Part shown: positions 26,688-45,871 of the stretch, in pieces
Layout: every line of letters starts with the position of its first letter
How positions within the stretch are numbered: position 1 is the first letter of the stretch
Source of the DNA: Agromyces sp. 3263
GTDB lineage: Bacteria; Actinomycetota; Actinomycetes; Actinomycetales; Microbacteriaceae
Length of the DNA stretch: 64,000 bases
Assembly (NCBI RefSeq): GCF_031456545.1
Contig: NZ_JAVDUV010000001.1
Coordinates: 2,418,001 to 2,482,000, forward strand
Reading direction: 5' to 3'
Position numbers and translations under genes: made by a program
Notes under the pieces: model-generated
The model's database searches: none
What the model was told of the DNA's origin: nothing
What the model saw: the letters and a program-made list of their open reading frames with translations, nothing else

Positions 26688-28262
26688 TCAGCCCTGGTAC
26701 TTCCAGATCCGGACGTAGTCCACCTGGTAGTCCAGCGGCTGCGTCCACGACTTGTTGTTCGGGTCGGGCAGGCCCCAGTACGTCGCCGACGGGCCGACGT
26801 GCAGGTTCAGTCGCACGTGCAGGGGCGAACCGAAGAACGACGGGTTCCACAGGTTCGGGTGCGTGGCCGGCGTCACTCGGGTGAGCTGCTTGCCGTCGAC
26901 GATGATCGCCGCGTAGGTGGGCGTGAACTCGAATGCGTACGTGTGGAAGTCATCCCACACGGGAGTGGCCGCGCCGAAGTCGGCGTGGGTCCAGTAGTAC
27001 TTCTGGTTGCCCGAGCCCGACGTCTGCGTGTGCACCGTGGTCGTCGCGGTGTCGATGCGCTGACCGCCGGGGGCCGCCGTCTCGTTGTAGCCCCACGCCT
27101 CCATGATGTCGATCTCGCCGCTCTGGCTGTTGCGGAGCCAGAACGCGGCCAGCGACCCGAAGGTCTTGGGCCCGGTCGGCGTCTTGGCGCGGATCTCCCA
27201 GCGGCCGTACTGCTGCGAGTACGACATGTCGTCGGACTGCAGCTTGCGCTGGTCCATGTAACCGGTCTTGTGGGTGATGGTCGGCACGCCGGCCTGGCCG
27301 GCCGGTCGGCTGAACGGCTGGTCGAGCCAGTCGGCCTTGAGGTGTGCGATGCCGGCGGCGTCGACGCTCACCTGGCTGGACTCGGGCTCAGCCGCGTCCT
27401 GCAGGAGCCCGAGGTCCGAGCGGTCACGGACGTTCCACTTCGTCGGGTCGATGGCCGGCTGGCCGCTGGAGTTCTTGAACGTGAACTCGTCGCGCCAGGT
27501 GGGGGCGCCCCATCCGGCGATCTCGCCGCTGTCCGAGCCCGTGCCTGGAGCCGGCGGAGTCGGCGCGTCCGCTTCGGACGGCACGGTGTAGGTGAGCGCC
27601 GCGTCGAAGCTCGTGTTGTACGTCTTGCGCCAGTTCGAGTGCACCTCGGCGGCGATCACGTTCGCACCGGCGCGAAGCGACGATGCGGGCACCTGCACGG
27701 TGATCAGGTCGGCTCGCGCCGCCGTGCTCTGCGGAGCCGACGTCGCGTACGTGCCCGGGCCGATCGCCCCGGCGGGCATGTTGCGGCGAACCGCCTCGAC
27801 GCCGTTGACGTAGACGACGACGCCGTCGTCGGCCCACGTCTGCAGGGTCAGGCCCGACGCGGGCACTGCCGCGAGCGAGAAGCCACGCGCGAAGTAGCTC
27901 GCGAGCGGTGCAGGGCTGCCCTGCTCCAGCTGCGTGCCGAGCTGGCCGGGGTTCAGGCCGAACCCGAGCGGCGCCGTGCCGGTCGACCACGACGTGGAGC
28001 CGCTGGTCCAGGACGAGGCGGGGGCGGTGGAGCCCCGGTAGTACGACCACCCGGAGCTTGCGAAGGGGAGGACGGTGGCCTGGGAATCGGCGGCCGACGC
28101 CGTGGCGTCCGTCGCGATGGCCGCGGCGCCCATCGTGCTGATGGCGAGCGCGGCTGCGATGGCGCCGCCGATGGCGACGCGGGTGAGGGATCTGCGGTTG
28201 GGGGTTTTGTTCGGTGGGGTCAGCGGGGGCTTGGCCTTGAGCAAAATTGGGGAACCTAACAT
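26688..28262 (-). CDS. Secreted GH16 endo-beta-glucanase with N-terminal beta module
   Basis: The 524-residue exported enzyme has three parts. The signal region has basic residues (NRRSLTR), a hydrophobic core and an AxA-type site near residue 58. A beta module of about 160 residues follows (WSYYRGSTAPASSW ... WADDGVVVYVNGVEAVRRNMPAG ... SNWRKTYNTSFDAAL). The C-terminal GH16 catalytic domain has the intact motif GEIDIMEAW. The N-terminal module is homologous to the two modules of the giant protein at 36975. A natural role is trimming or remodelling the locus's own glucan-type polymer, or a fungal/plant beta-glucan. The start at 28262 lacks a clear ribosome site. Confidence 0.9.
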   Translation of the reverse strand: MLGSPILLKAKPPLTPPNKTPNRRSLTRVAIGGAIAAALAISTMGAAAIATDATASAADSQATVLPFASSGWSYYRGSTAPASSWTSGSTSWSTGTAPLGFGLNPGQLGTQLEQGSPAPLASYFARGFSLAAVPASGLTLQTWADDGVVVYVNGVEAVRRNMPAGAIGPGTYATSAPQSTAARADLITVQVPASSLRAGANVIAAEVHSNWRKTYNTSFDAALTYTVPSEADAPTPPAPGTGSDSGEIAGWGAPTWRDEFTFKNSSGQPAIDPTKWNVRDRSDLGLLQDAAEPESSQVSVDAAGIAHLKADWLDQPFSRPAGQAGVPTITHKTGYMDQRKLQSDDMSYSQQYGRWEIRAKTPTGPKTFGSLAAFWLRNSQSGEIDIMEAWGYNETAAPGGQRIDTATTTVHTQTSGSGNQKYYWTHADFGAATPVWDDFHTYAFEFTPTYAAIIVDGKQLTRVTPATHPNLWNPSFFGSPLHVRLNLHVGPSATYWGLPDPNNKSWTQPLDYQVDYVRIWKYQG

Positions 28263-28396
28263 CTCGACTTGGTCACGAATCAGACGCCCACTGTAAGGGC
28301 ACGGTTCTCGATCGCCAAACTAAACTGAGAATCCGTCGGGAAGATGGTGGGAGCGGTTGCGGCCCCGCCTCCACCGGTTCCGCGTCGGGGCCACGT

Positions 28397-28402
28397 TACG
28401 AT
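28397..28402 (+). promoter_or_regulatory. -10 box (TACGAT) of the Wzz-like gene
   Basis: TACGAT lies 28 nt before the ATG at 28430, with a GAGGGGG ribosome site between. The GH16 gene diverges from the same 168-bp region. Confidence 0.4.
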
Positions 28403-28429
28403 GACTCATCCGGATGGCGAGGGGGCCGC

Positions 28430-29278
28430 ATGCTCGACGACGTCTTTCACAGCATCGCGCGACGCTGGCGATGGCTTGTCGGCGTGACGATACTGATGAC
28501 GCTCCTCGGGCTCGCGCTCGGCCTCCTCTGGCCCGACCGGTACACCGCCACCGCATCGGTCACGGTCGAGTCGATCACCATCGGCGAGCAGACCCAGGAC
28601 GTCAACATGGAGACCCAGCGGCTCGTCGCCCGGTCGACCGAGGTGCTCTCCATCGCCGCGGAGAACGTCGACGACGTGTCGGTCGCCCAGCTGCGGGGCG
28701 CCCTGCAGGTGAATGTGCCACGTGGCTCGCAGGTGCTCGAGTTCATCGTCACCGCGCCGTCGGCCGAGGCCGCGGCCGAGCAGGCGAACGCCATCGCGGA
28801 GGCCTACCTGGAACAGCGCACGGCGGCCGTCGAGGAGCGCATCACCGAGGCGTCCGCGACCTTGACCTCGACCGCCGACGAACTCGCCGCGCAGGCCGCC
28901 GGCCTCGCCCCCGACGACCCCAGGCGCATCTCGCTCGAGAGCCAGGTGCAGGCGCTGCAGGACCAGCGCGCGGTGCTGATCGCCACCTCCTTCGACGCGG
29001 GCGCACTCATCGACCCGGCCGTCGCGCCGACCGACACGGATAAGCCGAAGCTCTATGTCTTCGTGGCGGCCGGATTCTTCCTCGGCCTGTTTCTCGGCGC
29101 CTTCGTGGCGCTGATCAGGGACCGGCTCGCCCGCCGTGGCGAGCGAGCGGCGGAGGACGTCGGGTTGGAGCGGGCCGAGCCCCGGACGGCCGACGATGCA
29201 GCGGCGGTCGACCTCGGAAGCCCGGCGAGCGCCGGCGTGCGCGACGTGGCACCGGCGGGCCCGGGTTCCTCCTCCTGA
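28430..29278 (+). CDS. Wzz/chain-length-determinant family protein
   Basis: The 282-residue protein has the polysaccharide co-polymerase layout. A short cytoplasmic start is followed by a membrane helix (LVGVTILMTLLGLALGLLW) and YTATASVTVES, the typical Wzz strand. A long periplasmic-type coiled region (residues about 100-185, Ala/Glu-rich) leads to a second helix (VFVAAGFFLGLFLGAFVALI) and an acidic tail. There is no kinase domain. It is expected to set polymer length together with the Wzy protein at 34845. The ATG at 28430 is placed just ahead of the first helix. Confidence 0.85.
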   Translation: MLDDVFHSIARRWRWLVGVTILMTLLGLALGLLWPDRYTATASVTVESITIGEQTQDVNMETQRLVARSTEVLSIAAENVDDVSVAQLRGALQVNVPRGSQVLEFIVTAPSAEAAAEQANAIAEAYLEQRTAAVEERITEASATLTSTADELAAQAAGLAPDDPRRISLESQVQALQDQRAVLIATSFDAGALIDPAVAPTDTDKPKLYVFVAAGFFLGLFLGAFVALIRDRLARRGERAAEDVGLERAEPRTADDAAAVDLGSPASAGVRDVAPAGPGSSS

Positions 29279-31269: not shown

Positions 31270-31336
31270 CGGACCTCCCGGATGCCGCGCACGGATGTCT
31301 CTGGCCTCATCCTATCTGCGCCGGGCATCCCGCCGA

Positions 31337-31342
31337 TAGGAT
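31337..31342 (+). promoter_or_regulatory. -10 box (TAGGAT) of the GT2-PssD-PssE operon
   Basis: TAGGAT is 35 nt before the ATG at 31378, which has AGGGAGG 4 nt upstream. Confidence 0.5.
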
Positions 31343-31377
31343 GCAGGCACCCCTTCAACGAGTGGCAGGGAGGTGGC

Positions 31378-32292: not shown

Positions 32293-32293
32293 G

Positions 32294-32743
32294 ATGCGGG
32301 TGCTCATCGTCTGCTCGTCGGGAGGTCACCTGACCCAGGCGCTCGCGCTCAGGGACTGGTGGGCTCAGCACGAGCGATCGTGGGTCACCCTGCCCACCGA
32401 GGACGCCCGATCCCGCCTCGTCGGCGAGCACGTCGTGGAGGCGCATTACCCGACCGTGCGGAACCTCCCCAACCTCCTTCGGAACTTCCGCCTGGCGCGC
32501 CGCGTGCTCCGCGAGGTGCGACCGGACCTCGTCTTCAGCACCGGGGCGGCGATCGCCCTTCCGTTCTTCACGCAGGCGCACCACTACGGCGCTCGCACCG
32601 CGTTCCTCGAGCCCGTCGACCGCATCACCACGCCATCGCTGAGCGGCCGACTCGTCTACCCGTTCTCCGACGCCTTCCTCGTGCAGTGGGCGTCGCTGCA
32701 GTCGGTCTATCCCGAGGCCCGCGACATCGGAGTCGTGCTGTGA
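32294..32743 (+). CDS. PssD/Alg14-like glycosyltransferase subunit
   Basis: The 149-residue protein corresponds to the membrane-anchoring, acceptor-binding half of a bipartite GT-B enzyme, as in yeast Alg14 and bacterial PssD/EpsE. It starts VLIVCSSGGHLTQAL, the diagnostic Gly-rich loop. VFSTGAAIALPF and AFLEPVDRITTPSLSGRLV are also family-typical. It overlaps the next gene by 4 bp (GTGA), and both halves are needed for activity in known pairs. Confidence 0.9.
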   Translation: MRVLIVCSSGGHLTQALALRDWWAQHERSWVTLPTEDARSRLVGEHVVEAHYPTVRNLPNLLRNFRLARRVLREVRPDLVFSTGAAIALPFFTQAHHYGARTAFLEPVDRITTPSLSGRLVYPFSDAFLVQWASLQSVYPEARDIGVVL

Positions 32744-33303
32744 GTGCCAGGACCGTGGTCGTGAGCGCGGGGAGCTACCACCTGCCGTTCCAGCGGCTTG
32801 TCGACTGGATGACGCCGTGGGTCGCCGAGCACCCCGAGGTGCACGTGATCATGCAGCACGGTCCCAGCCATCCGCTCCCGGGTGCCGAGAACCACGACGT
32901 GCTCCCGTACGGCGAGCTGCTCGATCGGTGCCGGACCGCCGACGCCATCGTGCTGCAGGGCGGCGCCGGGGGCGTCATGGACATGCGGGCCATCGGCCGC
33001 GTCCCTATCGTGGTTCCACGGGTCCCCGTCGACGCCGAGGTCGTGGACGAGCACCAACTGATCTTCACCGAACGGGCCGAGCGGCTCGGCACGGTGCATC
33101 GGGCGATCACGCGTGAGCAGCTCTGGTCCTGCCTCGACGGGATGCTGGACGGCAGCATCGCCACGTCGGCGCCACGGTCCGAGCCGACGCCAGGGGTGGT
33201 GGCCGCGGCATCCGTGCTCGGAACGCTGCCCGAGCGACTGCCCGTGCCGGCGAGGGTCGCACGGCTCGGCCGCTCGGTCCGCGGCATCCTCTTCGGTCGC
33301 TGA
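32740..33303 (+). CDS. PssE/Alg13-like glycosyltransferase subunit
   Basis: The 187-residue catalytic half of the bipartite GT belongs to the family 28 C-terminal domain. The UDP-sugar binding features are MQHGPS, AIVLQGGAGGVMD and PIVVPRVP. The GTG at 32740 overlaps the PssD stop, the expected arrangement for a coupled pair. The C-terminus has an extra Pro/Ala-rich stretch and a basic end. The sugar donor is probably UDP-linked. Confidence 0.88.
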   Translation: MSARTVVVSAGSYHLPFQRLVDWMTPWVAEHPEVHVIMQHGPSHPLPGAENHDVLPYGELLDRCRTADAIVLQGGAGGVMDMRAIGRVPIVVPRVPVDAEVVDEHQLIFTERAERLGTVHRAITREQLWSCLDGMLDGSIATSAPRSEPTPGVVAAASVLGTLPERLPVPARVARLGRSVRGILFGR

Positions 33304-33346: not shown

Positions 33347-34855
33347 TCAGGCGAAGCGACCGAGCAGCGGGAATTCCCTCCAGAGGGCGACGATGCCCAG
33401 CCGGCGGCGGAGCATCCAGAGGGCGCCGGCGTACGCCAGGCCGACGACCGCGAGCCCGACGACCAGCGCGCCGAGCGACGTGCCGAGCGTCAGGCGGACG
33501 ATGCCCATGCCGACTCCGAAGACCCCGCTCGCGATGAGCATCGCCGGGAGCAACGGACGCGGTCGCAACCACACGCCCATCCTGCGGTGCACCTGCCACG
33601 CGGCGATGCCGGTATCGGTGAGGCCGACGACGGCCCAGGTGATCGCGGCGCCGATGATGCCCACGATCGGCACGAGGGCCAGGTTGAGCGCGACGCTGGT
33701 GGTCAGGACGATCGACTTGTTGAGCACCTGCCATGAGCTCCTGCCGCCCTGCAGGATGATGCTCTGCAACATGCCCGCGCTGGACGTGACGAGCATGGTG
33801 AGACTCAGGATGAGCAGTGGCACGGCGCCGCCCTCGAACTCCGCGCCGAACACCAGGAGCACCGACGGCCCCATGATGGCGAGCGTCAGGTAGTAGGGCC
33901 AGCTGACGAGGATCATCGCCCGGGTCACGGTCGTGTGCAGCTCCCGGGTCTCCGCGAGCTCCCCCTTCGCCAGGTGTCGCGAGATGCGAGGGCTCACCGC
34001 GAGGCGCATCGCCCGGTCGACGACCTGGCCCGCCCGTACCGTGCGGGTGACCACCGCGTAGATGCCCGCCTCGCCTGGCGAGGCGATGGCCGCGACGATG
34101 AGCACGTCCGTCCATTCGAGGAGGATCTCGAGCGAACCGCCGACCGCCCTCGTCGCGCTGAAGCGCCAGAACCTGCCACTCGCTTCGCCGAGCGGCTCCA
34201 CCGCCTGGGCGCGCTGTCGCCAGTCCTGGCGCAGGGGCGACACGAGCAGTCCGACGCTCACGAGCACCCAGAGCGGGATGACCGCGAGCCAGGCGCCGAA
34301 CGCGGTGAACGCGGTGCCCGCGGCGTACACGACCACGCCCACGGCGATGAGTCGCACGGCGGGGTAGATGATCGTATGGACGAGCGTGTACGCCGAGATG
34401 CCGTTGACCATGCGGGAGGCGATCTGGAGCACGGCGAGCAGCGCGCCCACGCTGATGAACGGCGCCATCAACTCCAGGAACGGCCGCAGCTGGGCGCTCT
34501 CGCCCGGCGAGGCGAGCCAGTTCGCGAGTGGCTCCGAACACACCCACACGAGCGCACCGGCGATGATCCCCAGAACGGCGACGGGGATGACGGCGATGAC
34601 GACGACGCGCCAGGTCTCGCCGCGACGCTCGAACGCCTGGTGTTCGGAGATCGTCCGTACCAGGCTGCTGTTGGTCCCGAGCCGGAGCACCTGGCTCGCG
34701 ATGGTGAAGAAGCCGACCGCCTGGAAGAAGAGGCCGGTGCCATAGGCGCCGAGCGCGTTGCCGATGATGACCGCGATGACGAGCGCCGAGAGCGCGGATG
34801 CCACCGATCCGATCAGGCTGAGCAGACCGCTGCGCGCAAGGCGTTCAACGCGCAT
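33347..34855 (-). CDS. Wzx-type polysaccharide flippase (oligosaccharide transporter)
   Basis: The 502-residue protein has about 12-14 membrane helices of the MOP/MATE-like polysaccharide transporter type. It opens with LARSGLLSLIGSVASALSALV, typical of Wzx. It is predicted to flip undecaprenyl-linked repeat units across the membrane. Its ATG overlaps the end of the Wzy gene by 11 bp, and it is the last gene of the ten-gene operon. It ends 44 bp from the convergent PssE gene. Confidence 0.9.
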   Translation of the reverse strand: MRVERLARSGLLSLIGSVASALSALVIAVIIGNALGAYGTGLFFQAVGFFTIASQVLRLGTNSSLVRTISEHQAFERRGETWRVVVIAVIPVAVLGIIAGALVWVCSEPLANWLASPGESAQLRPFLELMAPFISVGALLAVLQIASRMVNGISAYTLVHTIIYPAVRLIAVGVVVYAAGTAFTAFGAWLAVIPLWVLVSVGLLVSPLRQDWRQRAQAVEPLGEASGRFWRFSATRAVGGSLEILLEWTDVLIVAAIASPGEAGIYAVVTRTVRAGQVVDRAMRLAVSPRISRHLAKGELAETRELHTTVTRAMILVSWPYYLTLAIMGPSVLLVFGAEFEGGAVPLLILSLTMLVTSSAGMLQSIILQGGRSSWQVLNKSIVLTTSVALNLALVPIVGIIGAAITWAVVGLTDTGIAAWQVHRRMGVWLRPRPLLPAMLIASGVFGVGMGIVRLTLGTSLGALVVGLAVVGLAYAGALWMLRRRLGIVALWREFPLLGRFA

Positions 34856-36227
34856 GCGGTGGCCGATGGTCGAGCTTGGGGACCCAGAGCTTCGAACCTG
34901 GCGTGTACCGCTCCCGGAGCAGCAGGCCCAGGATGAGGCAGAGGCTGAGCATGTGCCGGTCGAGTCCGTAGAAGGCGCTGACCACGGTGCCGCTGATCAC
35001 GGCGGCGTGCAGCCAGAGGGTCGCCGTGTTGGGCGCCGACCACGTGCGGGCGATGCCGCCGAGGAGGAACCAGGCGAAGAGGAGGAGTCCCACGAAGCCG
35101 AAGCAGAACATGGTGTTCCACAGGGCGCCCTGGGTGCCGATGGTGATCTCGCTCGTCAGTGAGGGGCGGGGTGCGCCGAACCCGAGGATCGGCGACTCCA
35201 GCGTGCGGGCGAAGGTCTCCTCGTAGAGCAGGCTCCGCCCCTGCGTCGTGTCGACGACCTCCTGCCGCTCGACGATCGCCTCGAGTGCGCCGGAGATCGA
35301 CAACAGGAACATCACGCCCGAGCTCAGGACGCACACCCAGAGGAACGCCAGCCACTTGCCCCGTAGGAGCAACCGGATGACGACGTATGCGAGGCCCACC
35401 GCGACGCCGATGAACAGGCCACGATTGCTCGAGGCCACGGCCGGCGGTACCGCCAGCGCCGCGCCGAAGAGCACGAGGAGCAGGGCGCGCGCCGTGCCGC
35501 GCTCGAGCGCCCAGGCCACCGCCACGGGCGTGAGGATCACGAGCGCGGCGCCCCAGCCGTTCGTGTATGCGAAGGGTGCCGATGGGCGCACGAACGGTTC
35601 CTCGGCGCCCCATGGGTCCTGGACCTCGGAGAACTTGGGGAACACCAGGTCGTTGACGTACTCGTTGTCGAGGATCCCACCGGGAAGGAGACGCCCGACC
35701 GTGAACGTCAGGATCCCGTCGGGCCAGAGGATGCCGAGGTATCCGGCCAGGATGATGAAGAACCACGTGAAGGTGAGGCCCGCGAGCACGCGCCGCGGCG
35801 TCAGGGTCGAGCGGGCGTTGATGAGGTAGACGAGCGCGATCGCCACACCCGCGAACTGGGCGAAGCGCATGCCGAAGCCCAGCACTCGGCCCAGCGAGTC
35901 GAGCATGAGCGCGCACGGCAGCATCCAGACGACGAAGGCCAGCCAGGGGATGGTGCCCGGGACGAGTTCGACGCGCCCGCGATGGACGAGGTAGGCGAGC
36001 ATCGGCACGGAGACGATCAGCAGGTAGAAGGGCAGCAGGCCGAACGCCCACCACGCAGGCAGCCCCCACAGCAGGATGAGGATGGGCCAGGCAGGCAGTT
36101 CGCGCCGGGTCGCCGGTCGCATTGTCGCGGCCACGTGCGCGCCCGAGCCGGCGCGCGCGCCCACGGCAGCGCCGACGCCGGCGCCGGCCGTGGCCGCTCG
36201 TCCGGACCTGCCGACGGTGACGGTCAC
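34845..36227 (-). CDS. Wzy-type O-antigen polymerase/ligase family protein
   Basis: The 460-residue integral membrane protein has about ten to twelve helices and one large extracytoplasmic loop. The segment VPPAVASSNRGLFIGVAVG, followed by the loop with Arg-rich TTQGRSLLYEE and a Gly-Phe-Gly turn (ESPILGFGAPRP), is typical of the Wzy_C domain. It is predicted to polymerise repeat units on the outside. The GTG at 36227 overlaps the preceding stop (GTGA), supporting this start; the first 40 residues are a Gly/Ala-rich cytoplasmic extension. It works with the Wzx gene that follows and the Wzz-like protein at 28430. Confidence 0.88.
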   Translation of the reverse strand: MTVTVGRSGRAATAGAGVGAAVGARAGSGAHVAATMRPATRRELPAWPILILLWGLPAWWAFGLLPFYLLIVSVPMLAYLVHRGRVELVPGTIPWLAFVVWMLPCALMLDSLGRVLGFGMRFAQFAGVAIALVYLINARSTLTPRRVLAGLTFTWFFIILAGYLGILWPDGILTFTVGRLLPGGILDNEYVNDLVFPKFSEVQDPWGAEEPFVRPSAPFAYTNGWGAALVILTPVAVAWALERGTARALLLVLFGAALAVPPAVASSNRGLFIGVAVGLAYVVIRLLLRGKWLAFLWVCVLSSGVMFLLSISGALEAIVERQEVVDTTQGRSLLYEETFARTLESPILGFGAPRPSLTSEITIGTQGALWNTMFCFGFVGLLLFAWFLLGGIARTWSAPNTATLWLHAAVISGTVVSAFYGLDRHMLSLCLILGLLLRERYTPGSKLWVPKLDHRPPHAR

Positions 36228-36973
36228 GCGACCGGAGTCCGGACTCCGGCGCGGAGCGCTCGGTACTTGCGGACCAGCGAGAGCGCGGCGACCCCCGCGG
36301 TGAACAGGAACAGGGCCACGTACGCGGTGAGGAACACCGGCATCCAGGCGGACGTCGCGACGATGAGGTAGGTCACTCCCACGTCGTACGGCAGTTTCGC
36401 GAAGGACAGCCAGACCGGGGCATCCGGTCGGGGCGCCTCGCCGCCCGGTGCCAGCTTCTCCGCCAGGGTCTGCGCGAAGAACCACACCGACGACAGCAGG
36501 GCGAACGCGGCGGCCGTCGACACGAACACCGGTGGCTGACCGGCTTGCACGAGGAAGACCAGGACGGCGATGTGGAACAGCGGCAATCGCGCGGCATCGA
36601 CGACGTGGTCGAGCCATTCACCCGCCACGGAGCCGGAGCCCGTGAGCCGCGCGAGCTGGCCGTCGGCGGAGTCGAGCGCATACCCGCCGAGGAGCAGCGC
36701 CGAGGCGCCGATCGCCGCCGCCGGCGAGGGCGGCGCGAGCACCAGCACGAGCATGCCGGCAAGCGACAGGATGCCGCTGAGGAGCGTCACCTGGTTCGGG
36801 GACAGCCGCAGGACATAGGCAGCCGCAGCGGCACGGCGTCCGAGGCCCCGATTGACCCAGCGGAGGTAGGCGGGAACTCCGGCGCCCGGCTTCTGCGCCG
36901 CCGCGAGCCGGCTCACCGCCTCACGGTAGTTCCGTCGTTCGCCTGCAGGGGTCAATCGGGGTCCCGGTGCCAT
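36224..36973 (-). CDS. CDP-alcohol phosphatidyltransferase family enzyme
   Basis: The 249-residue membrane enzyme has six or so helices. The complete CDP-alcohol motif is present: D-S-A-D-G-Q-L-A-R, then eight residues, then G-E-W-L-D-H-V-V-D (D-x2-D-G-x2-A-R-x8-G-x3-D-x3-D). Such enzymes displace CMP from a CDP-alcohol. A tagD-like cytidylyltransferase in the same operon (43501) could supply a CDP-alcohol. This suggests a phospho-alditol or novel lipid headgroup attached to, or anchoring, the polymer. It lies 1 nt after the giant protein's stop and overlaps the Wzy gene by 4 bp. Confidence 0.88.
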   Translation of the reverse strand: MAPGPRLTPAGERRNYREAVSRLAAAQKPGAGVPAYLRWVNRGLGRRAAAAAYVLRLSPNQVTLLSGILSLAGMLVLVLAPPSPAAAIGASALLLGGYALDSADGQLARLTGSGSVAGEWLDHVVDAARLPLFHIAVLVFLVQAGQPPVFVSTAAAFALLSSVWFFAQTLAEKLAPGGEAPRPDAPVWLSFAKLPYDVGVTYLIVATSAWMPVFLTAYVALFLFTAGVAALSLVRKYRALRAGVRTPVA

Positions 36974-36974
36974 G

Positions 36975-39900
36975 TCACCGTGTCGCCGACAGGACGAGCT
37001 GGAAGCTCAGGTCGGGCGATGTGCGGTAGTTGAGGTGGGTGGACGCCGTCAGGACGTTCGTCCCGGCGACCAGGAGGCCCGCAGGAACAGCGACTTCGAC
37101 CTGGTTGGCCACCGCCGTGCTCGTGCGAGGTGCAGCCGTCGCGAACGTCGACTGGCTGATCGTGCCGGCCGGGAGGTTCGCGCGACCGATCTCGGTGCCG
37201 TTGAGGTAGACGATCGCGCCGTCGTTCGCCACGAACCGCAGCGTGACCGTCTGGAGCGCGCTCGGGTCGCTCACGGTGAACGCGTGCCGGAACCGGGCAC
37301 TCAAGGGCCGCGGAGACGGCGCCCCCACCGAGATGTCGGTGCCGAGACCGGTCGAGTTGAACCCCAGCGGGGCCGGGCCGACCGCCCACGAGGAGTCGTC
37401 GAAGCCCGATTGCTGCCAGTCCGCCTCCCACGTGCTGCCGTCGTAATCCCAGCGCCAGTTCGCCGTCTGCGGCACGAGGGTCACGTTCGGGTCGACCGGT
37501 TCGGCAGGCGTCGTGACCTGTGCGGTCCCGGCAGGTGACGTCGAGGCGCCGGCGATGGCGACCACGCTGTACTGGTAGGTCGTCGATGCCGTCAAGCCGC
37601 TGTCGGCGAAGCTCATCGTCGACCCCGGCACGCGCGCCACCTCGACGCCGTCCCGCCGCACGGCGTACTCGGTGACGCTCCCGGGCGAGGGGTGCGTCCA
37701 CGAGACGTCGACCGTCGAGAAGCTCGTCGCACTCGCCGTCACGGTCGGTGCCGCGAGCGGCGCCGGCGTGCCCCGCTTCGCCGTGAACCTCAGGTCGAAG
37801 CTGAGGTCGGGCGACGTGCGGTAGTTGAGATGCGTCGAGGCGGCGATCACGTTCGTCCCGCTGACGAGCAGCCCGCTGGGCACCGTGAACTGGACGCGGC
37901 TGGATGCCGCGGCCGTCGTTCGCGGAGCCGCGCTGGCGAACGTGTTCTGGCCGATCGTGCCGGACGGCATATTGGCCCGCCCGATCTCGACGCCGTTCAC
38001 GGACACCACCACGCCATCGTCGGCGACGACGGACACGACGCCGTTGATCACGGTCGCTGGGTCACTCACCGTGAACGACTTGCGGAACTGCGCGCTCAGC
38101 GGGCGCGGGCTCGGCGCTCCGACCGAGATGTCGGTCGCGATGGTCGAGGACCCGAATCCGAGGAACGACGCACCGGTCGCCCAGGCTCCGTCGTTGTAGC
38201 CGATGTCGCGCCAGTTCGTCGCCCAAGCCGTGGAGTCGTAGCGCCAGCGCCACGAATCGCCGGTGGACGCGAAGGTGAGATCACTCGCGCTCGGCGGGTT
38301 CACCAGAGCGACCGAGGACGTCGCCGAGCGGTTGCCGGCCGCGTCGACGGCACGCACGAAGTACTTCACCGGCGCGCTCTCGACGGGAACCGAGAGCTCC
38401 TGCGCGGTCGTGGACTCGACGACCTTGTTCCCCCGGATCACCTCGTACTTCGCGACGCCGCGATTGTCGGTCGAGGCGGTCCAGGACAGCAGGGCGTGGG
38501 TGGCATCCGTCGGGGTGACCGACGCGGTCGGCGCCGACGGTGCGGCCGCGTCACGCGGGGCGAACCTCGAGAAGCCGGCCGCCCACTGGTTCACCTGTCC
38601 GGCCCGGGTGGAGTACAGGAGGTCTCCGCCCGCCCACAGCGTGCCGGTCGAGTCCTGGAAGATCGCCCACACGCCGAACCCGCGACGGGCCTGGGTGATC
38701 GGGTTGAAGTCCTGGAGGTACTTGCCGGTCGCCGCATCCCACCCGCCGAACAGGTTGATGCTGTCGCCCTGCGTCCAGTTCGTGCCGACGTCCGACCACG
38801 CGAAGGCGTTCTCGTACGAGAAGTCACCGCAGTGGCATCCGCCGAAGACGGTGTCGGCATTCGCCTCGACCACCTGGAAGTCGCCGCCGGCCTTCGTGAT
38901 GCTCCCGCTCGTTCGGGTGAACGTGTTGCGGTCGTAGCCGAACAGGCTGTGCTCGGATCCGCCCGAGTACACCTTGCCGGCCGCCTCCGCGACGCCGAGC
39001 TGCCAGATGTTGCCCGTGAAGTTCGTGCCGGGCTTGCTGAACTGCGGGGCCCACAGGGGCTGCACCAGCGGCGCGCCGCTGGCGGTCTGGAAGGCCGCGT
39101 CGCTCAGCGTCTGGGTGGCCCCGCTCTGGCGGAAGTAGCCCGAGTAGTACGCCCGCGTGCCGTCGCCGGCGGCCTCCACCCCGACGCTGGTGCCGTTCAG
39201 GTTGGGGTTCCACTGGTTGTCGGGGCCGCCGGCGGCGAGGTTGATCCGTCCGCCGTTCCACGAGCTCGAGGTCACGCCATTGGATCCGACGAGGTGCGTG
39301 AACGAGCCCGACAGGTAGAGGAATCCGCCCTGGAGCGAGAAGCCCCGGACCTGGACGGTTCCGCCCGCCGTGCGGTTCTCCACGTCGACCTGCCAGCCGG
39401 GCGCGGTCTGGCCCGTGGCCGGGTCGAGCACCACGAAGCCGGAATGCGGTTGACCGTTCACCGTGGTGAACTGGCCGCCGACCGCCAGGCGTCCGTCGGG
39501 CAGTCCGATGATGGACTTCACCTGGTTGTCCAACTGCGGCACGAAGGTCGGCTTGAACTCCCCGGTGTTCACGTCGAACGCCGCGAGGTAGGGTCGCTCG
39601 ATCTTGCTGGTGCCCGTCGACGTCGCCGACTTCTGCACGTAGCGGAAGTTGCCGCCCACGTACACGGTGCTTCCCACCTGGCCGAACGCGGCCACCTCGG
39701 TGTTGAGCTCGCCGTCCACGCCGTTCGCCTGGCCGGTCACGCCCCACACCGTGCGAAGCGCATCGCTGTCGGGCTGTGGCCGGAGGGTCTGCGCCGGTGC
39801 CCCGCCGTCGGGGATGGTGCCGAAGTCCATCTGGGAGATCCGCAGCTGGGGTCGGAGGTACACCTGCGTGAACGGACGAGCGCCCCCGAGCCCGTTCGTC

Positions 39901-40658
39901 GCGGAGTAGAGGTAGGAGGTGGCAGCGGTCTGGCCGAGCACCTGGGAGCCGAAGGAGAATCCACCGACCCAGCCCTGCGCCGCGCTGATGCTCTGGTCGA
40001 CGCGCCGGAACTGCGAGTTGCTGCCGAAGTTGGCGGTCGTGCCGCCGGAGCCGGCGACCCCGTCGAACTGGTAGGTGCCGACCGGATGCTCACCCCGGAA
40101 CGTCCACACCCAGCGGTCCCGCTTGGGCATCGTGAACCGCGCCTCCTGCCAGGTCGTGCCGGTCGTGTTGGTCGCACGACGGAGCCGGATTCCATCGGGG
40201 ACGGCGCTCACCTTGCCGTTGTTCAGCAGGCCGTCGATCATCTGGGACGGAAGCTGCGCCACGGTGAATGCGTCGGGCCCGGTCACGGTGTTGCGGAGCA
40301 CGTCGGGGGTGCGCAGGCCGTGGTAGTAGTTCTTCCAGCCCTCGCGGCCGCGGCCGACGAGGACCCATCCGCCACCGCTGGTGGTCATGTCGCAGTAGAA
40401 CTGCTCGGGCGCCTTCAGTGCGGGCGTGAGCAGCCAGTACACGCCGTCGGGAGACGCGGGAACGTTCTGCTTCACCTCCCAGCACGAGCCGGCCGCGGTG
40501 CGCTGACTCAGCCCGTCGGGCGTCGGCTCGGCCGCCGCCGCGGGTGACGGGGGCGAGCCGGTGAACATCAGCAGGGATGCCGCCATCGCGGCGGTGGCCA
40601 TGAGAGCGATCGTCGTTCGTGCTCCGAGTCGGCTTCGGGGCGAGGTGTGGGTGTTCAT
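36975..40658 (-). CDS. Giant secreted fibrinogen-domain/beta-propeller/FnIII/beta-module protein
   Basis: The protein has 1227 residues from the ATG at 40658, chosen for AAGGA 7 nt upstream; an in-frame ATG at 40685 would overlap the previous gene. The order is as follows. Signal peptide to about residue 43. A fibrinogen-related domain at about 55-280 (SCWEVKQ, FYCDMTTSGGGWVLVGRG). A repeat-rich region at 290-710 with VYVGGNF, LAVGGQF, FLYLSGSF, VYSGGSEH and LWAGGDL, which looks like a beta-propeller. An FnIII domain at 725-810. Beta module A at 815-975, a second FnIII domain, and beta module B at 1070-1227. The modules share TDISVGAPSPRPLSA and THLNYRTSPDLSF. The domain mix predicts glycan or protein binding at the surface. 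The wall anchor, if any, is not an LPxTG. Confidence 0.85.
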   Translation of the reverse strand: MNTHTSPRSRLGARTTIALMATAAMAASLLMFTGSPPSPAAAAEPTPDGLSQRTAAGSCWEVKQNVPASPDGVYWLLTPALKAPEQFYCDMTTSGGGWVLVGRGREGWKNYYHGLRTPDVLRNTVTGPDAFTVAQLPSQMIDGLLNNGKVSAVPDGIRLRRATNTTGTTWQEARFTMPKRDRWVWTFRGEHPVGTYQFDGVAGSGGTTANFGSNSQFRRVDQSISAAQGWVGGFSFGSQVLGQTAATSYLYSATNGLGGARPFTQVYLRPQLRISQMDFGTIPDGGAPAQTLRPQPDSDALRTVWGVTGQANGVDGELNTEVAAFGQVGSTVYVGGNFRYVQKSATSTGTSKIERPYLAAFDVNTGEFKPTFVPQLDNQVKSIIGLPDGRLAVGGQFTTVNGQPHSGFVVLDPATGQTAPGWQVDVENRTAGGTVQVRGFSLQGGFLYLSGSFTHLVGSNGVTSSSWNGGRINLAAGGPDNQWNPNLNGTSVGVEAAGDGTRAYYSGYFRQSGATQTLSDAAFQTASGAPLVQPLWAPQFSKPGTNFTGNIWQLGVAEAAGKVYSGGSEHSLFGYDRNTFTRTSGSITKAGGDFQVVEANADTVFGGCHCGDFSYENAFAWSDVGTNWTQGDSINLFGGWDAATGKYLQDFNPITQARRGFGVWAIFQDSTGTLWAGGDLLYSTRAGQVNQWAAGFSRFAPRDAAAPSAPTASVTPTDATHALLSWTASTDNRGVAKYEVIRGNKVVESTTAQELSVPVESAPVKYFVRAVDAAGNRSATSSVALVNPPSASDLTFASTGDSWRWRYDSTAWATNWRDIGYNDGAWATGASFLGFGSSTIATDISVGAPSPRPLSAQFRKSFTVSDPATVINGVVSVVADDGVVVSVNGVEIGRANMPSGTIGQNTFASAAPRTTAAASSRVQFTVPSGLLVSGTNVIAASTHLNYRTSPDLSFDLRFTAKRGTPAPLAAPTVTASATSFSTVDVSWTHPSPGSVTEYAVRRDGVEVARVPGSTMSFADSGLTASTTYQYSVVAIAGASTSPAGTAQVTTPAEPVDPNVTLVPQTANWRWDYDGSTWEADWQQSGFDDSSWAVGPAPLGFNSTGLGTDISVGAPSPRPLSARFRHAFTVSDPSALQTVTLRFVANDGAIVYLNGTEIGRANLPAGTISQSTFATAAPRTSTAVANQVEVAVPAGLLVAGTNVLTASTHLNYRTSPDLSFQLVLSATR
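36978..38240 (-). repeat. Two duplicated beta modules in the giant protein gene
   Basis: Segments at about 37730-38240 and 36978-37450 encode homologous modules of about 160 residues with shared blocks (TDISVGAPSPRPLSA, NYRTSPDLSF, AAPRT). They are separated by an FnIII-like domain. A third, more distant copy is in the GH16 gene at about 27580-28085. Confidence 0.8.
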
Positions 40659-40672
40659 CATGGTTTCCTTGC

Positions 40673-41380
40673 TCATTCGGGACATGAGGCGCCATCGGGG
40701 ATCTCGTGGGTCGAGATTCTCCAGACGTCGTCCGTGAAGACGGCGCCATAGAGGTGCAGCACCGGGTGTCCGGGCTGGTAGAGCTGATCGCCGACGGACT
40801 TGCCGGCGCTGTCGAGGACGTCGAGTCCGCTCGTGTCGACGCAGACTTCGAGGAGGGCGGTCGGAGGGTCGGAGGTGAGGTCCATGGAACGGACGGCGAC
40901 GCTGGTGACCTCGGCGGCGCCGACCTGGGTGTAGCCGAGCTGCTTCCGCTCGACGGCGAGCGCCTCGAGTTCACCGCGGACGAAGCCCGTCGCGATCGCG
41001 TCGATCCCCTCGGTGCCGCCGTCGGCGCGCTGCAGGATCTCGTTGCCCGCGGCCACGAGGTCCTCGACCGCCACCGTGGCGGCGACCGTCGCGGTCTCCT
41101 CATCGCCGAGAGGGGCCGGCTCGGGAGTCGCGACGGAGAGCGGCGGCGGCGGCGGTTCCTCCGTGGGCTCGACGGTCGATTGCGCCGAGGTGTCGACCGG
41201 TGGTTGAGTCAGGTTCGCGGAGAGGGCGATCACCCCGGCGATCACCGCGCCGCCCGCGACGAGGGCCGCGCCGATGATCCAGCGCGTACGACGCGAACGC
41301 GGGTTCTCGGGCCGAAGCTCGTCTTCGGGACCGAGCTCGTCTTCGGGACCGAGGTCGTCTTCGAGGCGTCGTGGGGTCAT
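40673..41380 (-). CDS. Membrane-anchored protein of unknown function in the polysaccharide operon
   Basis: The protein has 235 residues. An acidic N-terminus with tandem repeats ([15 protein letters not shown]) and a basic patch (PRSRRTRW) precede one membrane helix, then a Pro/Thr-rich linker and an extracellular domain of about 140 residues. The outer domain ([13 protein letters not shown] ... [14 protein letters not shown] ... [17 protein letters not shown]) has the feel of the small Mce-associated or conjugal-transfer lipoprotein folds, but I cannot name it. It overlaps Fcl (ATGA) and precedes the giant protein by 14 bp, so it may help tether or export that protein. Confidence 0.7.
41318..41366 (-). 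repeat. 18-bp tandem repeat encoding the PEDEL-type acidic repeat
   Basis: GTCTTCGGGACCGAG is repeated with an 18-bp period (41321 and 41339), flanked by partial copies, inside the N-terminus of the anchored protein. Confidence 0.75.
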
Positions 41381-42381
41381 GGCGTGCTCCCAAGGGGGTC
41401 GACGGCCCCGGAGCGGGCCGCGTACTGGAGCATGAAGTCGTCGACGGTCGAGCGGAGGCCGTCGCGCAGGGTGATCTCCGCGTTCCAGCCGAGGGCCGTC
41501 ACGCGGGAGACGTCGAGCAGCTTGCGGGGCGTGCCGTCGGGCATCGTCGGGTCGAATTCGAGTCGGCCCTCGAAGCCGACCGCACCTGCGACGAGGCCGG
41601 CGAGCTCACGGATGGTGAGGTCGACGCCCGTGCCCACGTTGAGATGCGCGAGCGTTCCGCCGAGCACCTCGTCGAACTCGGACCGAGGTCGTTCCATGAC
41701 GTGCACGCTCGCTCGGGCGAGGTCGTCGACGTGCAGGAACTCCCGCCGCGGCTCGCCCGTGCCCCAGATGACGACTTCGGGGGCGCCGGTCTCGCGCGCC
41801 TCGTGGAAGCGGCGGATGAGTCCCGGGATGACATGGCTCCGCGTGGGGTGGTAGTTGTCGCCCGGGCCGTAGAGGTTGGTCGGCATGATGGCCCGGTAGT
41901 CGCGGCCGAACTGCGTGCGGAGGCTCGCGCAGAGCGTGATCCCGGCGATCTTCGCGACCGCGTAGGGCTCGTTCGTCGGCTCGAGAGGACCCGTGAGCAG
42001 CGCCTCCTCGACCATCGGCTGGGTGGCGAACTTGGGGTAGATGCACGATGAACCGAGGAAGAGGAGTCGATCGACGTCGCGGGCGTGAGCCGCCCAGATC
42101 ACATTGGCCTCGATCATCAGGTTCTCGTAGACGAAGTCCGCGGGCAGCATGCTGTTCGCGTAGATGCCGCCCACCTTCGCCGCGGCCAGGACGACCTGGT
42201 CGATGTGCTCGCTCGCGAAGAATCGCCGGACCTGGGCCTGGTCGGTGAGGTCGAGTTCGGCGCGGGTGCGCGTGACGATCTCGGCGTAGCCCAGCGAACG
42301 GAGGCGCCGCTCGATCGCCGAGCCCACCATTCCACGGTGCCCGGCGACGAAGATTCGGAGGTCGGTGGGGTGCATGCTCAT
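41377..42381 (-). CDS. fcl: GDP-L-fucose synthase
   Basis: The 334-residue epimerase/reductase of the SDR family converts GDP-4-keto-6-deoxymannose to GDP-L-fucose. The Rossmann start is [16 protein letters not shown], and the catalytic Tyr-Lys pair is in [21 protein letters not shown] and [17 protein letters not shown] are near-invariant in Fcl proteins. It is coupled to gmd by an ATGA overlap and to the next gene likewise. Its product is the donor for the GT11 enzyme at 24366. Confidence 0.95.
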
Positions 42382-43496
42382 CCCTCCGCCGTGACCAGCG
42401 TGGGGTAGCCGAGCGACTTCAGCAGCGCGGTCTGCTTGGCGACGTCGAGATCGGCGGCGACCATCTCGGCGCAGAGCTCACGGACACCGATCTCGGGCAT
42501 CCAGCCCAGCTCGAGCTTCGCCTTCGTCGCATCGCCGAGCAGGGTCTCCACCTCGGCGGGCCGGAAGTACCGGGGGTCCACCCGCACGATGACGTCGCCG
42601 GGCGCCACACCCGGTGCGTCGTCGCCGATGACCTCGTCGACCACGCCGACCTCGCCGAGTCCCGAGCCCTCGAACCGCAGGGTGACCCCCACCTCCTCGG
42701 CGGCCCACCGCACGAACTGGCGGACCGAGTGCTGGATGCCCGTCGCGATGACGAAGTCCTTGGGCTCCTCGCGCTGCAGCATCATCCACTGCAGGCGCAC
42801 GTAGTCCCGCGCGTGCCCCCAATCGCGTCGCGAGTCCAGGTTGCCGAGGTACAGGCAGCGCTCGAGGCCCTGGGCGATGTTCGCGACGCCGCGGGTCACC
42901 TTGCGGGTCACGAAGGTCTCTCCGCGCCGGGGCGACTCGTGGTTGAAGAGCACGCCGTTGCAGGCGTACATGCCGTAGGACTCCCGGTAGTTGACCGTGA
43001 TCCAGTAGGCGAAGAGCTTCGACGCGGCATACGGCGACCGAGGGTAGAACGGGGTCGACTCCCGCTGCGGAACCTCCTGCACCTTCCCGAACAGCTCGGA
43101 AGTCGAGGCCTGGTAGAACCGCACCTGGTCCAGACGCAGGAGCCGGACCGCCTCCAGCAGCCGCAGCGTCCCCAGGGCGTTGACGTCGGCCGTGTACTCG
43201 GGTTCCTCGAAGCTGACGGCGACGTGCGATTGCGCGCCCAGGTTGTAGATCTCGTCGGGCTCGACGTCGCGCACGATCCTCGTGATGTTCGACGCGTCGG
43301 TGAGATCGCCGTAGTGCAGGAAGAGCTGCGCGTCCTCGGCGTGCGGGTCCTGGTAGATGTGGTCGATCCGCTGCGTGTTGAATTGCGAGGAACGGCGCTT
43401 GATGCCGTGCACCTCGTAGCCTCGCTCCAGGAGGAACTCGGCGAGGTACGAGCCGTCCTGGCCCGTGATTCCCGTGATGAGTGCGCGCTTGGCCAT
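42378..43496 (-). CDS. gmd: GDP-mannose 4,6-dehydratase
   Basis: The 372-residue SDR dehydratase performs the first step from GDP-D-mannose towards GDP-L-fucose. The NADP motif is [20 protein letters not shown]; the active site includes [14 protein letters not shown] and [31 protein letters not shown] is diagnostic of Gmd. Its start is 4 nt after the cytidylyltransferase stop. It is cotranscribed with fcl. Confidence 0.97.
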
Positions 43497-43500
43497 GGCG

Positions 43501-43989
43501 TCAGCCCTCGCCCTCGCTGCGCTCCGGAGCGTCGGGCTCCTGGAGTGCGGCCAGTGCTCGCCGGAGGATGGTGCTCGAGGTCGTCACCGTGTAGGGGAAG
43601 TACACGACCTCGACGCCGACCTTCGCGAACGCCCGCTCCAGGTCGCGACCACGACGCGTGCCCTTCCAGTCGTCGCCCTTGAAGTAGATGTCGAACCGGA
43701 CTTCGTTCCACGTCTCGAGCTTGTCGACGGCGGTTTCGGGGTACGCCTCGTCGACGAAGGAGATGTGCCGGACGATCTCGAGCCGCTCGCTGAGCGGGAC
43801 GATCGGACCGTGGCCGCGAGTGGCGACGAGGGCCTCGTCGGCGACGACGCCCGCCACGAGATAGTCGCACGCGCTGCGTGCGTGCTTGAGGATGTTGAGG
43901 TGGCCGATGTGGAAGAGGTCGAAGGCGCCCCCGGCGTAGCCGATGCGCGCTCCCTCGGGGCGCGCGACGGTCTGCTCGATGTCGGCCAT
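43501..43989 (-). CDS. TagD/RfaE-like cytidylyltransferase
   Basis: The 162-residue nucleotidyltransferase of the cytidylyltransferase-like fold has [15 protein letters not shown] with the HxGH motif, and the ISSTxxR-type motif as [17 protein letters not shown] matches the glycerol-3-phosphate cytidylyltransferase subgroup. It would make a CDP-alcohol (CDP-glycerol or another CDP-polyol) or an ADP-sugar. The CDP-alcohol phosphotransferase in the same operon favours a CDP product. Its ATG overlaps the priming transferase stop by 1 nt (TGATG). Confidence 0.87.
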
Positions 43990-45515
43990 CAGTACGCCCC
44001 CTTGGGACGAAGCACCGTCTTCACCGTGCGCCATACGATCATGAGGTCGCCGAGGAGCGACCAGTTCTCGACGTAGTAGAGGTCGAGCCGGACGCTCTCC
44101 TCCCAACTCAGGTCGGAGCGTCCGCTGATCTGCCAGAGGCCCGTGAGGCCGGGCTTGATCATCAGCCGACGCTTCACCTTCTTCTCGTAGCACTCCGCCT
44201 CGGCGACGAGTGGCGGCCGCGGTCCGACGACGCTCATGTCGCCGACGAGGATGTTCCAGAACTGGGGCAGCTCGTCGAGCGAGTGCGAGCGCAGCTTCCG
44301 GCCGATGCGCGTGACGCGCGGATCGTTGCGAAGCTTGAAGAGCACGCCCGAGCCCTCGTTCTGGTCGAGCAGTCCCTCGAGGTCCCGTTCGGCGGTCTGC
44401 ACCATGGAGCGGAACTTCAGCATCTCGAACGTCTGGCCGTCGCGCCCGCACCGGGTCTGCCGGAACAGGATCGGGCCCGGGCTGTCGAGCCGCACCAGCA
44501 GCGCGATGACGAGCATGAGCGGGGAGAGCAGCAGGAGCGCCGTGCCCGAGAACGCGATGTCGAACGTGCGCTTGACCGCATGGCGCCACCCGGCGAAGGT
44601 CGGAATCTCGACGTGGAGGAGCGGCAGGCCCTCGACGGGGCGGAAGTGGACCCGTGGCCCGGCGACGTCGGTGAGCCGCGACGACAGCACCAGCTCGGTC
44701 GCCGTGCCCTCGAGATCCCAGCTCAGCTGCCGGATCGCGTCGCCGCCGTCGCCGTACTGCCCGGTCACGATCACGGCGTCGGCGTGGTGGGCCGACGCGG
44801 CGGTGGCGGCGCCGGCGGTGCCTGAGACGACGGGGATGCTGCTCCCCGCCACCGTCAGTTCCGTCCGGTCGTCGTCGACCGCCGCGCCGACCACGACGAA
44901 CCCGGCTCCGGCGTCGCGTGCGATCTGCCGGGCGACGTATTCGACGTCGTGGCGCGCGCCGACCACGATCGCTCGGGAGAGGTAGTTGCCTCGTCGGCGC
45001 TGGAGGAAGAGCCACCGTCGCCACTTCCAGCGACCGACCAGCAGGGCGATCGCGCCGGTCGGGGCGGCGACGAGGAGGTACCACCGCGCGCCTGGGGTCT
45101 CGGGGAGGACGAGGAGCAGGATGGCGCCGAGCCCGAAGGCGGTCGCAGTCGCGTTGAGCACGCGCTTGTACTCGGCTGCACCCACGCCGATCACGTGCGG
45201 ATCCCGCGAGCGGAAAGCGCTGAGCGCCATGAGCCAGATCGCCGCGGTGATGACCGGGATACCCGCCGGCTGAAGCCACCCATCGGCCGCGACCGGCGGC
45301 CCGAGCACCATGATCCGCACCGTGACGGCGGCGAGCGTCGCGGCCACCACGACGGAGACGTCGGTGAACCGCAGCCGATCGCGATAGCGGCGCGCCCACC
45401 GCAGGCCGGAGGCTGACCAGACGCGGTCGGATGCCGCGGCCACGCGTCGGTCTGCGACGTCGGGAGGCGCCGTCGACGGTGCGGCGGGCGTGATCCTCGA
45501 CGGCAGGCCGCTCAT
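43989..45515 (-). CDS. Polyprenyl-phosphate sugar-1-phosphate transferase (priming enzyme, WcaJ-like)
   Basis: The 508-residue first enzyme of the polymer pathway loads a hexose-1-phosphate onto undecaprenyl phosphate. Four N-terminal helices are followed by a soluble CoA-binding-like domain (AIVVGARHDVEYVARQI) and the bacterial sugar transferase domain. The latter has KRTFDIAFSGTALLLLSPLM, MLKFRSM, the catalytic Asp-Glu in SLDELPQFWN, MSVVGPRPPLV and PGLTGLWQISGRSD. The ATG at 45515 is chosen over a start at 45722 whose extra 69 residues are low-complexity. It begins the ten-gene operon. Confidence 0.93.
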   Translation of the reverse strand: MSGLPSRITPAAPSTAPPDVADRRVAAASDRVWSASGLRWARRYRDRLRFTDVSVVVAATLAAVTVRIMVLGPPVAADGWLQPAGIPVITAAIWLMALSAFRSRDPHVIGVGAAEYKRVLNATATAFGLGAILLLVLPETPGARWYLLVAAPTGAIALLVGRWKWRRWLFLQRRRGNYLSRAIVVGARHDVEYVARQIARDAGAGFVVVGAAVDDDRTELTVAGSSIPVVSGTAGAATAASAHHADAVIVTGQYGDGGDAIRQLSWDLEGTATELVLSSRLTDVAGPRVHFRPVEGLPLLHVEIPTFAGWRHAVKRTFDIAFSGTALLLLSPLMLVIALLVRLDSPGPILFRQTRCGRDGQTFEMLKFRSMVQTAERDLEGLLDQNEGSGVLFKLRNDPRVTRIGRKLRSHSLDELPQFWNILVGDMSVVGPRPPLVAEAECYEKKVKRRLMIKPGLTGLWQISGRSDLSWEESVRLDLYYVENWSLLGDLMIVWRTVKTVLRPKGAY

Positions 45516-45871
45516 GTGTGCGACCGGATGCGAATGGAGGATGGGCGGGTGTTCAAGGGTCGGCGAGGTCGCCGACAATATGCAGGCTTCATCGTGCTTC
45601 TTCGATTGGGGACTCGGGTTTCGAAGAATGACCGGAGGGGACCGGTTGGAAGCGGCCTGCTGTCGTGCAGGATACGGCAGCTGGTCGTGCGGTGTGCCAT
45701 CCCAGGGGAAGGATGAGTTCATCTCACAGGGGAGAGATGTTTCACTGACGTTACGCTTGCAACCGCCTTGCCGCGTTACCCAGAACGGGGGGCGGTGGGG
45801 GGGTTGACCCGGCCACGGCTATTCGCGAGGATTCGTCGTTTCGGCCGCGAGGCGGTCTTCGGGGGACACGG
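45516..45871. promoter_or_regulatory. 356-bp regulatory region upstream of the polysaccharide operon
   Basis: No gene is visible. On the minus strand a TATTGT -10 candidate (45580-45575) gives a leader of about 55 nt. Directly after it is an 18-bp near-perfect palindrome, GTCGGCGAggTCGCCGAC (45559-45576). Farther upstream are a lower-GC stretch (about 45730-45770, GTTACGCTTGCAA) and two G-runs of six and seven (45787-45792 and 45797-45803). The region is the only sizeable gap in the window, fitting a regulated operon promoter. Confidence 0.5.

Follow-up and report, generated by a model that had tools for sequence, protein, structure and literature searches.

In the 4.07-Mb genome of Agromyces sp. 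3263, a stretch of 64,000 nucleotides (the window; contig NZ_JAVDUV010000001.1, positions 2,418,001 to 2,482,000) carries on its minus strand a gene for a giant protein of 1236 amino acids, which combines a fibrinogen-related domain (FReD), a beta-propeller and a tail of fibronectin type III (FnIII) domains and beta-sandwich modules. The gene lies inside a predicted exopolysaccharide locus. The giant protein is inherited near-exclusively together with one family of Wzy polymerase, which is encoded in the same locus.

Co-inheritance with one Wzy family

The occurrence of the two genes was compared in two samples of genomes. In the family sample (299 genomes), a full match to the FReD-propeller protein was found in 21 genomes and Wzy in 21, and the two sets are identical; the full-length call relies on a natural gap in the matches (7e-162 versus 9e-19). 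In the order sample (297 genomes), the FReD-propeller query matched 26 genomes, all of which carry Wzy, and Wzy was matched in 33. These 26 genomes span seven families at 35-74% identity; 25 of the matches cover both FReD and propeller, and the match in G519, a fragmented assembly, covers the propeller alone. The seven genomes with Wzy only are those with the seven weakest Wzy matches (E values of 2e-40 to 3e-22, compared to 1.4e-47 or lower), a feature that was noticed post hoc. The samples overlap and jointly contain 42 matched genomes (41 full-length), none of which is without Wzy. The distance between the two genes is short: 1.5-5.5 kb in the family sample, on the same contig in 21/21 genomes, and 1.5-11.7 kb in the order sample, on the same contig in 20/26 genomes and on separate contigs in the remaining six. 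The 42 matched genomes share ancestry and do not amount to 42 independent events. The spread over seven families, the range of identities and the changing flanking genes argue for selection keeping the FReD-Wzy pair. A preliminary description of this DNA had tied the protein to the polymer of its own locus; co-occurrence with Wzy in 21/21 and 26/26 genomes, mostly within 6 kb, makes this tie stronger than the sequence alone could show. Its view of FReDs as uncommon in polymer operons did not hold, as the domain is not rare here and goes with one type of polymerase.

A database search, in which the best candidates were scored, gave at least 1,116 homologous proteins. In a genome scan, relatives with 37-94% identity were found in Agromyces, Leifsonia, Cryobacterium, Microbacterium, Amnibacterium, Ornithinimicrobium, Rothia, Tamaricihabitans and Amycolatopsis, and the nearest relatives with the locus are Agromyces humi, A. 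sp. Marseille-P2726 and A. subbeticus. Gene content around the FReD gene was analyzed by tblastn on fetched stretches of 16-25 kb, with one locus for each of 33 out of 34 distinct genomes (37 entries minus the duplicates G353, G359 and G360; FReD genomes that the order sample brought up afterwards are not among the 33). The genome left out, G338, has the gene at a contig end; its Wzy lies 5 kb from the FReD-propeller gene, and a CDP-alcohol phosphotransferase was searched for there and not found. As controls we used 19 random 20-kb regions from ten of the same genomes, slightly unequal in length to the loci; a twentieth was dropped as it fell on a FReD locus.

Wzy and Wzx were each present near the FReD gene in 33/33 loci, a CDP-alcohol phosphotransferase in 32/33 and a conserved protein of 235 residues, termed u235, in 31/33, in most loci directly upstream of the FReD gene. 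Each of these four was found in 0/19 controls, and the initiating sugar-phosphate transferase in 1/19. Homologues therefore lie mainly at polysaccharide loci and not mainly outside them (33 loci in 33 genomes); the preliminary description had named the opposite distribution as one that would count against its reading. The other genes were found at lower counts: cytidylyltransferase in 23 loci, Alg14-like gene in 22, initiating transferase in 20, GH16 gene in 13, and gmd and fcl in 6 each. Fucose synthesis was consequently rejected as a general partner; the fucose context noted in the preliminary description is incidental, and the link is with Wzy, Wzx and the CDP-alcohol phosphotransferase. 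By hand reading, a PF02397 initiator gene is located within 3.6 kb of 13/14 main-locus orthologues with at least 50% identity, the distance in the fourteenth (G356) being 18 kb; as relatives become more distant, a remote initiator gene, or one on another contig, is often seen.

The propeller is more widely distributed, with propeller-only matches in 62/299 genomes of the family sample. The subfamily of the CDP-alcohol phosphotransferase was present in 78/82 genomes with either propeller match compared to 22/217 genomes without. In 20/21 FReD genomes of this sample it lies within 1.8 kb of the FReD-propeller gene; in the 62 propeller-only genomes, its distance from the propeller gene is at most 20 kb in 41 and larger in 10, and in 11 it is not on the contig of that gene. 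Other Agromyces (G040, G054, G001, G002) carry propeller proteins at the same chromosomal site. Their propeller is related to that of the window protein, but they have no FReD match, their tails consist of Laminin_G_3 and PKD domains (five proteins scanned, from G040, G054, G013 and G001), and the fetched stretches of their loci gave no match to the Wzy, Wzx and CDP-alcohol phosphotransferase of the window. From these few genomes, polymer type and exported-protein type seem to be swapped jointly at this chromosomal site. Several giant propeller proteins stand in tandem in the polysaccharide locus that G040 and G054 have at this site (L039-L044). A candidate u235 relative in the propeller-only genome G040 occupies the same position, yet the match reaches 20% probability over the hydrophobic segment and the homology was judged unconvincing.

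Architecture of the giant protein

The gene had been placed at 36975..40658. The open reading frame (ORF) is real and runs to 40685, and 40658 corresponds to an internal ATG (residue 10); this ATG is likely the true start because the ORF of the A. subbeticus orthologue begins there. A GC content at third codon positions of 0.92 and the alignment of relatives along most of the chain (37-94% identity) are both signals of coding. The N-terminus resembles a Sec signal, and the protein is probably exported. Among 120 homologues listed, 114 have a hydrophobic N-terminus and none has a sortase-type (LPxTG) motif, as expected for a soluble exported protein; anchoring through LPxTG was accordingly rejected. 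Domain scans, fold searches and a predicted structure (pLDDT 91) revealed the FReD, the propeller and two FnIII plus beta-sandwich units, and bore out the domain list of the preliminary description (FReD, propeller-like region, two FnIII domains and two beta modules).

Residues 67-110 belong to the NCBIfam family NF040941 (GGGWT_bact, fibrinogen-like YCDxxxxGGGW domain-containing protein; 75.2 bits, cut-off 30), whose model spans 46 positions and gives no role. The domain occurs once in the whole genome. Pfam Fibrinogen_C (PF00147) scored 19.5 bits in the protein scan (cut-off 22) and 22.4 bits in the genome scan. Bacterial FReD is already a curated, catalogued domain, and many of the listed homologues carry the NF040941 name; the string YCDxxxxGGGW had no match in a search of the open-access literature. 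In the fold search, the modelled FReD matched ficolins, FIBCD1, tachylectin 5A, tenascins and intelectin across its whole length, so that the predicted domain is complete but divergent; by sequence, intelectins are the nearest solved proteins. Animal FReD lectins have a second disulfide and a calcium-binding D-x-D site near the ligand pocket. The second cysteine pair and a calcium-site-like motif were absent in 45/45 sequences, each of which has two cysteines (no positive control was included for the motif). Judged from these sequences, the animal-type ligand site is absent from the window FReD, unlike in ficolins, FIBCD1, tachylectin 5A and intelectin; the likeness to animal glycan-binding FReDs that had been put forward stands for the fold and not for this site.

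The structural matches of the second domain are WD40-like propellers, and the model probably has seven blades. Its Cys-His-Cys string (residues 617-619; 38829-38837, minus strand) is present in 120/120 homologues listed, C617 and C619 being kept in 65/65 aligned rows. These are the sole cysteines outside the FReD and may form a metal site or a disulfide. A phmmer search of PDB sequences with the propeller gave one weak match, a chitin-binding protein (E 0.14), and otherwise none up to E 10, a result compatible with distant relation. In the tail, two stretches match fn3 (family score 37.1 bits, cut-off 25) and two match PF14683, a family resembling carbohydrate-binding modules (CBMs), at 25.8 bits, slightly below the cut-off of 27. 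The beta module was found once in 38, twice in 68, three times in 12 and not at all in 2 of the 120 homologues listed; as read from these sequences, the tail varies by whole FnIII plus beta-sandwich units. A search of PDB sequences with the module gave a single, meaningless match (E 0.5).

The exopolysaccharide locus

The minus-strand order is wcaJ-type initiator, cytidylyltransferase, gmd, fcl, u235, FReD gene, CDP-alcohol phosphotransferase, Wzy and Wzx; beyond Wzx follow an Alg14/Alg13-type pair, a family 2 glycosyltransferase (GT2), a Gfo/Idh oxidoreductase, Wzz, a GH16 glycanase and a family 11 glycosyltransferase (Table 1). This order confirmed the neighbours named in the preliminary description (gmd and fcl upstream, CDP-alcohol phosphotransferase and polymerase downstream), and adds the u235 gene that it had omitted between fcl and the FReD gene. 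From gmd through the CDP-alcohol phosphotransferase, genes overlap or are separated by at most 14 bases, which suggests a single transcription unit. With a PF02397 initiator, Wzx, Wzy, Wzz and glycosyltransferases together, the gene content is that of a Wzx/Wzy-dependent exopolysaccharide locus.

Table 1. Predicted features of the giant protein and of its locus in the window
Feature	Coordinates	Strand	Basis
FReD-propeller-FnIII/beta protein, 1236 aa	36975..40685	-	ORF, domain scans, structure prediction
FReD, about residues 56-289, two Cys only (C68, C98)	39819..40520	-	NF040941 match, structure model
Beta-propeller, residues 301-716, probably seven blades, Cys-His-Cys at 617-619	38538..39785	-	structure model, fold search
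Two FnIII plus beta-sandwich units, residues 717-1236	36978..38537	-	domain scans, structure model
u235, 235-aa conserved protein, one hydrophobic segment	40673..41380	-	homologue in 31/33 loci
CDP-alcohol phosphotransferase	36224..36973	-	intact D-x2-DG-x2-AR-x8-G-x3-D-x3-D; homologue in 32/33 loci
Wzy_C-type polymerase (part used in searches)	34845..36137	-	homologue in 33/33 loci
Wzx flippase	33347..34855	-	PF01943, 46 bits (cut-off 28.2)
Wzz chain-length protein, true start probably within ORF	28247..29278	+	PF02706
GH16-family glycanase with one beta module	26688..28262	-	PF00722, 50.1 bits (cut-off 22); motif EIDIME
Cytidylyltransferase-like protein	43501..43986	-	PF01467; homologue in 23/33 loci
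Initiating sugar-phosphate transferase	43989..45722	-	PF02397
GDP-mannose 4,6-dehydratase (gmd)	42378..43496	-	family scan
GDP-fucose synthase (fcl)	41377..42381	-	489.7 bits (equivalog cut-off 500)
Alg14/PssD-like and Alg13/PssE-like glycosyltransferase pair	32294..33303	+	family scans
Family 11 glycosyltransferase	24366..25235	+	family scan

The signature listed for the CDP-alcohol phosphotransferase is that of its enzyme class, and the cytidylyltransferase-like protein is a possible source of a CDP-alcohol. u235 has two invariant cysteines, and family scans assigned it to no family. For Wzy, a longer ORF to 36617 overlaps the preceding gene, and the shorter part was used as query. The window Wzy itself had no Pfam match; PF04932 (Wzy_C) was matched by 16/20 aligned Wzy relatives at E values of 1 or lower (best 1.9e-12), and a Wzy profile search of PDB sequences gave zero matches. 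The catalytic motif of GH16 enzymes is E-x-D-x-x-E, and both domain match and motif assign the glycanase to this family. Its beta module, of the giant-protein family, is N-terminal, likewise in three related Agromyces. A constant association of GH16 with the module was rejected, as just 2/6 distinct GH16-like ORFs in the other fetched loci carry it (L115 and L116 display a single gene, which was counted once). A PaaK-like protein of the adenylate-forming type (447 aa; 25246-26589, minus strand), encoded where the locus borders on other genes, has homologues in 4/33 related loci. The ORF u331 (31312-32307, minus strand) has a homologous stretch in 27/33 loci, yet it reads as a shadow of the plus-strand GT2 gene and was not used.

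A candidate matrix scaffold and competing explanations

We consider it moderately probable that the giant protein is a secreted, soluble, multi-domain matrix scaffold dedicated to one type of Wzx/Wzy polymer. The operon would make the polymer (initiator, glycosyltransferases, Wzx, Wzy and Wzz) and the giant protein together. Once exported, the protein would bind the polymer via propeller and/or FReD, the two domains that conservation points to as binding candidates, and the tandem FnIII plus beta-sandwich tail (one, two or three copies by species) may give reach and multivalency. Polymer chains would be cross-linked and held at the cell or at surfaces, and the GH16 enzyme with its shared beta module may trim or release the polymer.

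This proposal is modelled on Vibrio cholerae, in which Bap1 and RbmC (propeller) and RbmA (FnIII) are likewise exported proteins built of propeller, FnIII or lectin modules; several of these matrix proteins are encoded beside polysaccharide genes together with a suggested polysaccharide-cutting enzyme. According to excerpts of the published studies, the Bap1/RbmC propeller binds Vibrio polysaccharide (VPS) directly in gel shifts (PMC10102183), an FnIII domain mediates the binding of RbmA to VPS (PMC5605196), and the vps intergenic region contains the rbm genes, RbmB being a suggested polysaccharide lyase (PMC8295476). The window protein differs from Bap1 and RbmC by having a FReD instead of beta-prisms and a propeller of probably seven blades instead of eight, and from the Vibrio system as a whole by a gene inside the operon, a Gram-positive host and a strict pairing with one Wzy. 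The likeness is put forward as an analogy: the single-sequence search of the PDB with the propeller matched no solved propeller up to E 10, and Bap1 is absent from the structural matches listed, which carries no weight either way.

Several observations weigh against too simple an account of this kind. Firstly, Microbacterium sufflavum (G357) has five FReD-propeller copies (L059, L115, L116 and L117), one in a polysaccharide locus, two 18-19 kb off and two solitary beside housekeeping genes, and a second copy in G103 has u235 nearby but no Wzy, Wzx or phosphotransferase. Counted apart, the four loci with secondary copies in G357 and G103 gave 0/4 for Wzy, Wzx and CDP-alcohol phosphotransferase and 1/4 for u235. 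Secondly, Wzy and Wzx are present in the Amycolatopsis locus (L067), whose fetched stretch gave no phosphotransferase or u235 match by tblastn. Thirdly, the beta module is also found in a protein of about 800 amino acids encoded at an unrelated site of the genome (G000:C2:445170-446498; L004, L049), which weakens the module as a polymer-specific element. Domains and even whole giant proteins can thus exist away from this polymer. By reading of its sequence, the N-terminus of the 800-residue protein is metallophosphoesterase-like, and its C-terminal end consists of two modules that share 43% identity with the giant-protein tail; similar genes are present in G021, G055 and G057.

The strict FReD-Wzy pairing leaves room for a role in polymer assembly or retention. 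The giant protein could be essential to it, capturing with u235 the nascent chains by Wzy and setting their release, anchoring or packing. The position of u235 directly upstream in most loci and the tight, partly overlapping genes from gmd to the CDP-alcohol phosphotransferase are consistent with such a role. Contact with Wzy is only supposed, however, paralogues stand alone at housekeeping loci, and propeller-only relatives occur in other polysaccharide loci without a window-type Wzy, so that we regard an essential role as unlikely, though with some chance of being right. A bolder version, to which we give rather less credence, proposes an Actinomycetota polymer-assembly module in which the cytidylyltransferase and CDP-alcohol phosphotransferase would add an alcohol-phosphate mark to the polymer or its lipid end; reading this mark would fall to the FReD-propeller protein with the aid of u235. 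If this were true, the FReD would be a bacterial reader of a mark on the glycan of its own cell, and the Wzy system would depend on it as more than an optional glue.

The protein might instead adhere to foreign glycans or surfaces, being transferred with the operon and making no contact with the polymer. Such a passenger is expected to be lost or separate in some genomes, and 0/42 matched genomes were without Wzy; this makes an adhesin improbable despite the modular lectin-type architecture, the solitary paralogues and the beta modules shared with a protein elsewhere. Secreted enzymes often bear FnIII and CBM-like modules, and with the invariant Cys-His-Cys the propeller could act as an enzyme on the polymer, modifying or cutting it, while FReD and beta modules keep the propeller on its substrate; the WD40-like structural matches, the single weak PDB sequence match and the GH16 enzyme already present in the locus render this very improbable. 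Least probable of all is that the Wzy_C-type protein acts (also) as an O-oligosaccharyltransferase on the giant protein as acceptor, yielding a covalent glycoconjugate: the Wzy_C family also includes ligases and protein O-glycosylating enzymes, and the PF04932 matches among Wzy relatives would be in line with this, as would a pairing of one polymerase with one exported protein, but the locus has a single Wzy candidate and requires a polymerase, and Wzz is present.

Returning to the scaffold proposal, its description as previously undescribed holds in part. The FReD is catalogued as NF040941, while the pairing with a polymerase is absent from the open-access literature matches listed; none of these links a bacterial FReD or DUF5122 protein to an exopolysaccharide locus, most subscription papers being outside that search. 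What appears new is a candidate matrix protein of a polysaccharide locus with an unusually clean genomic pairing with Wzy. To our knowledge, the best-studied protein partners of exopolysaccharides come from Gram-negatives. In an excerpt of the Bap1/RbmC study, the question is raised of whether the double-sided-tape design is general (PMC10102183). The system presented here is Gram-positive and widespread, the homologous proteins numbering at least 1,116, and it joins one polymerase with a co-inherited lectin-like protein of several domains. It offers a defined protein-polymer pair and a bacterial FReD that likely acts on self-glycans and, as a genomic marker, the type of polymerase may predict matrix proteins.

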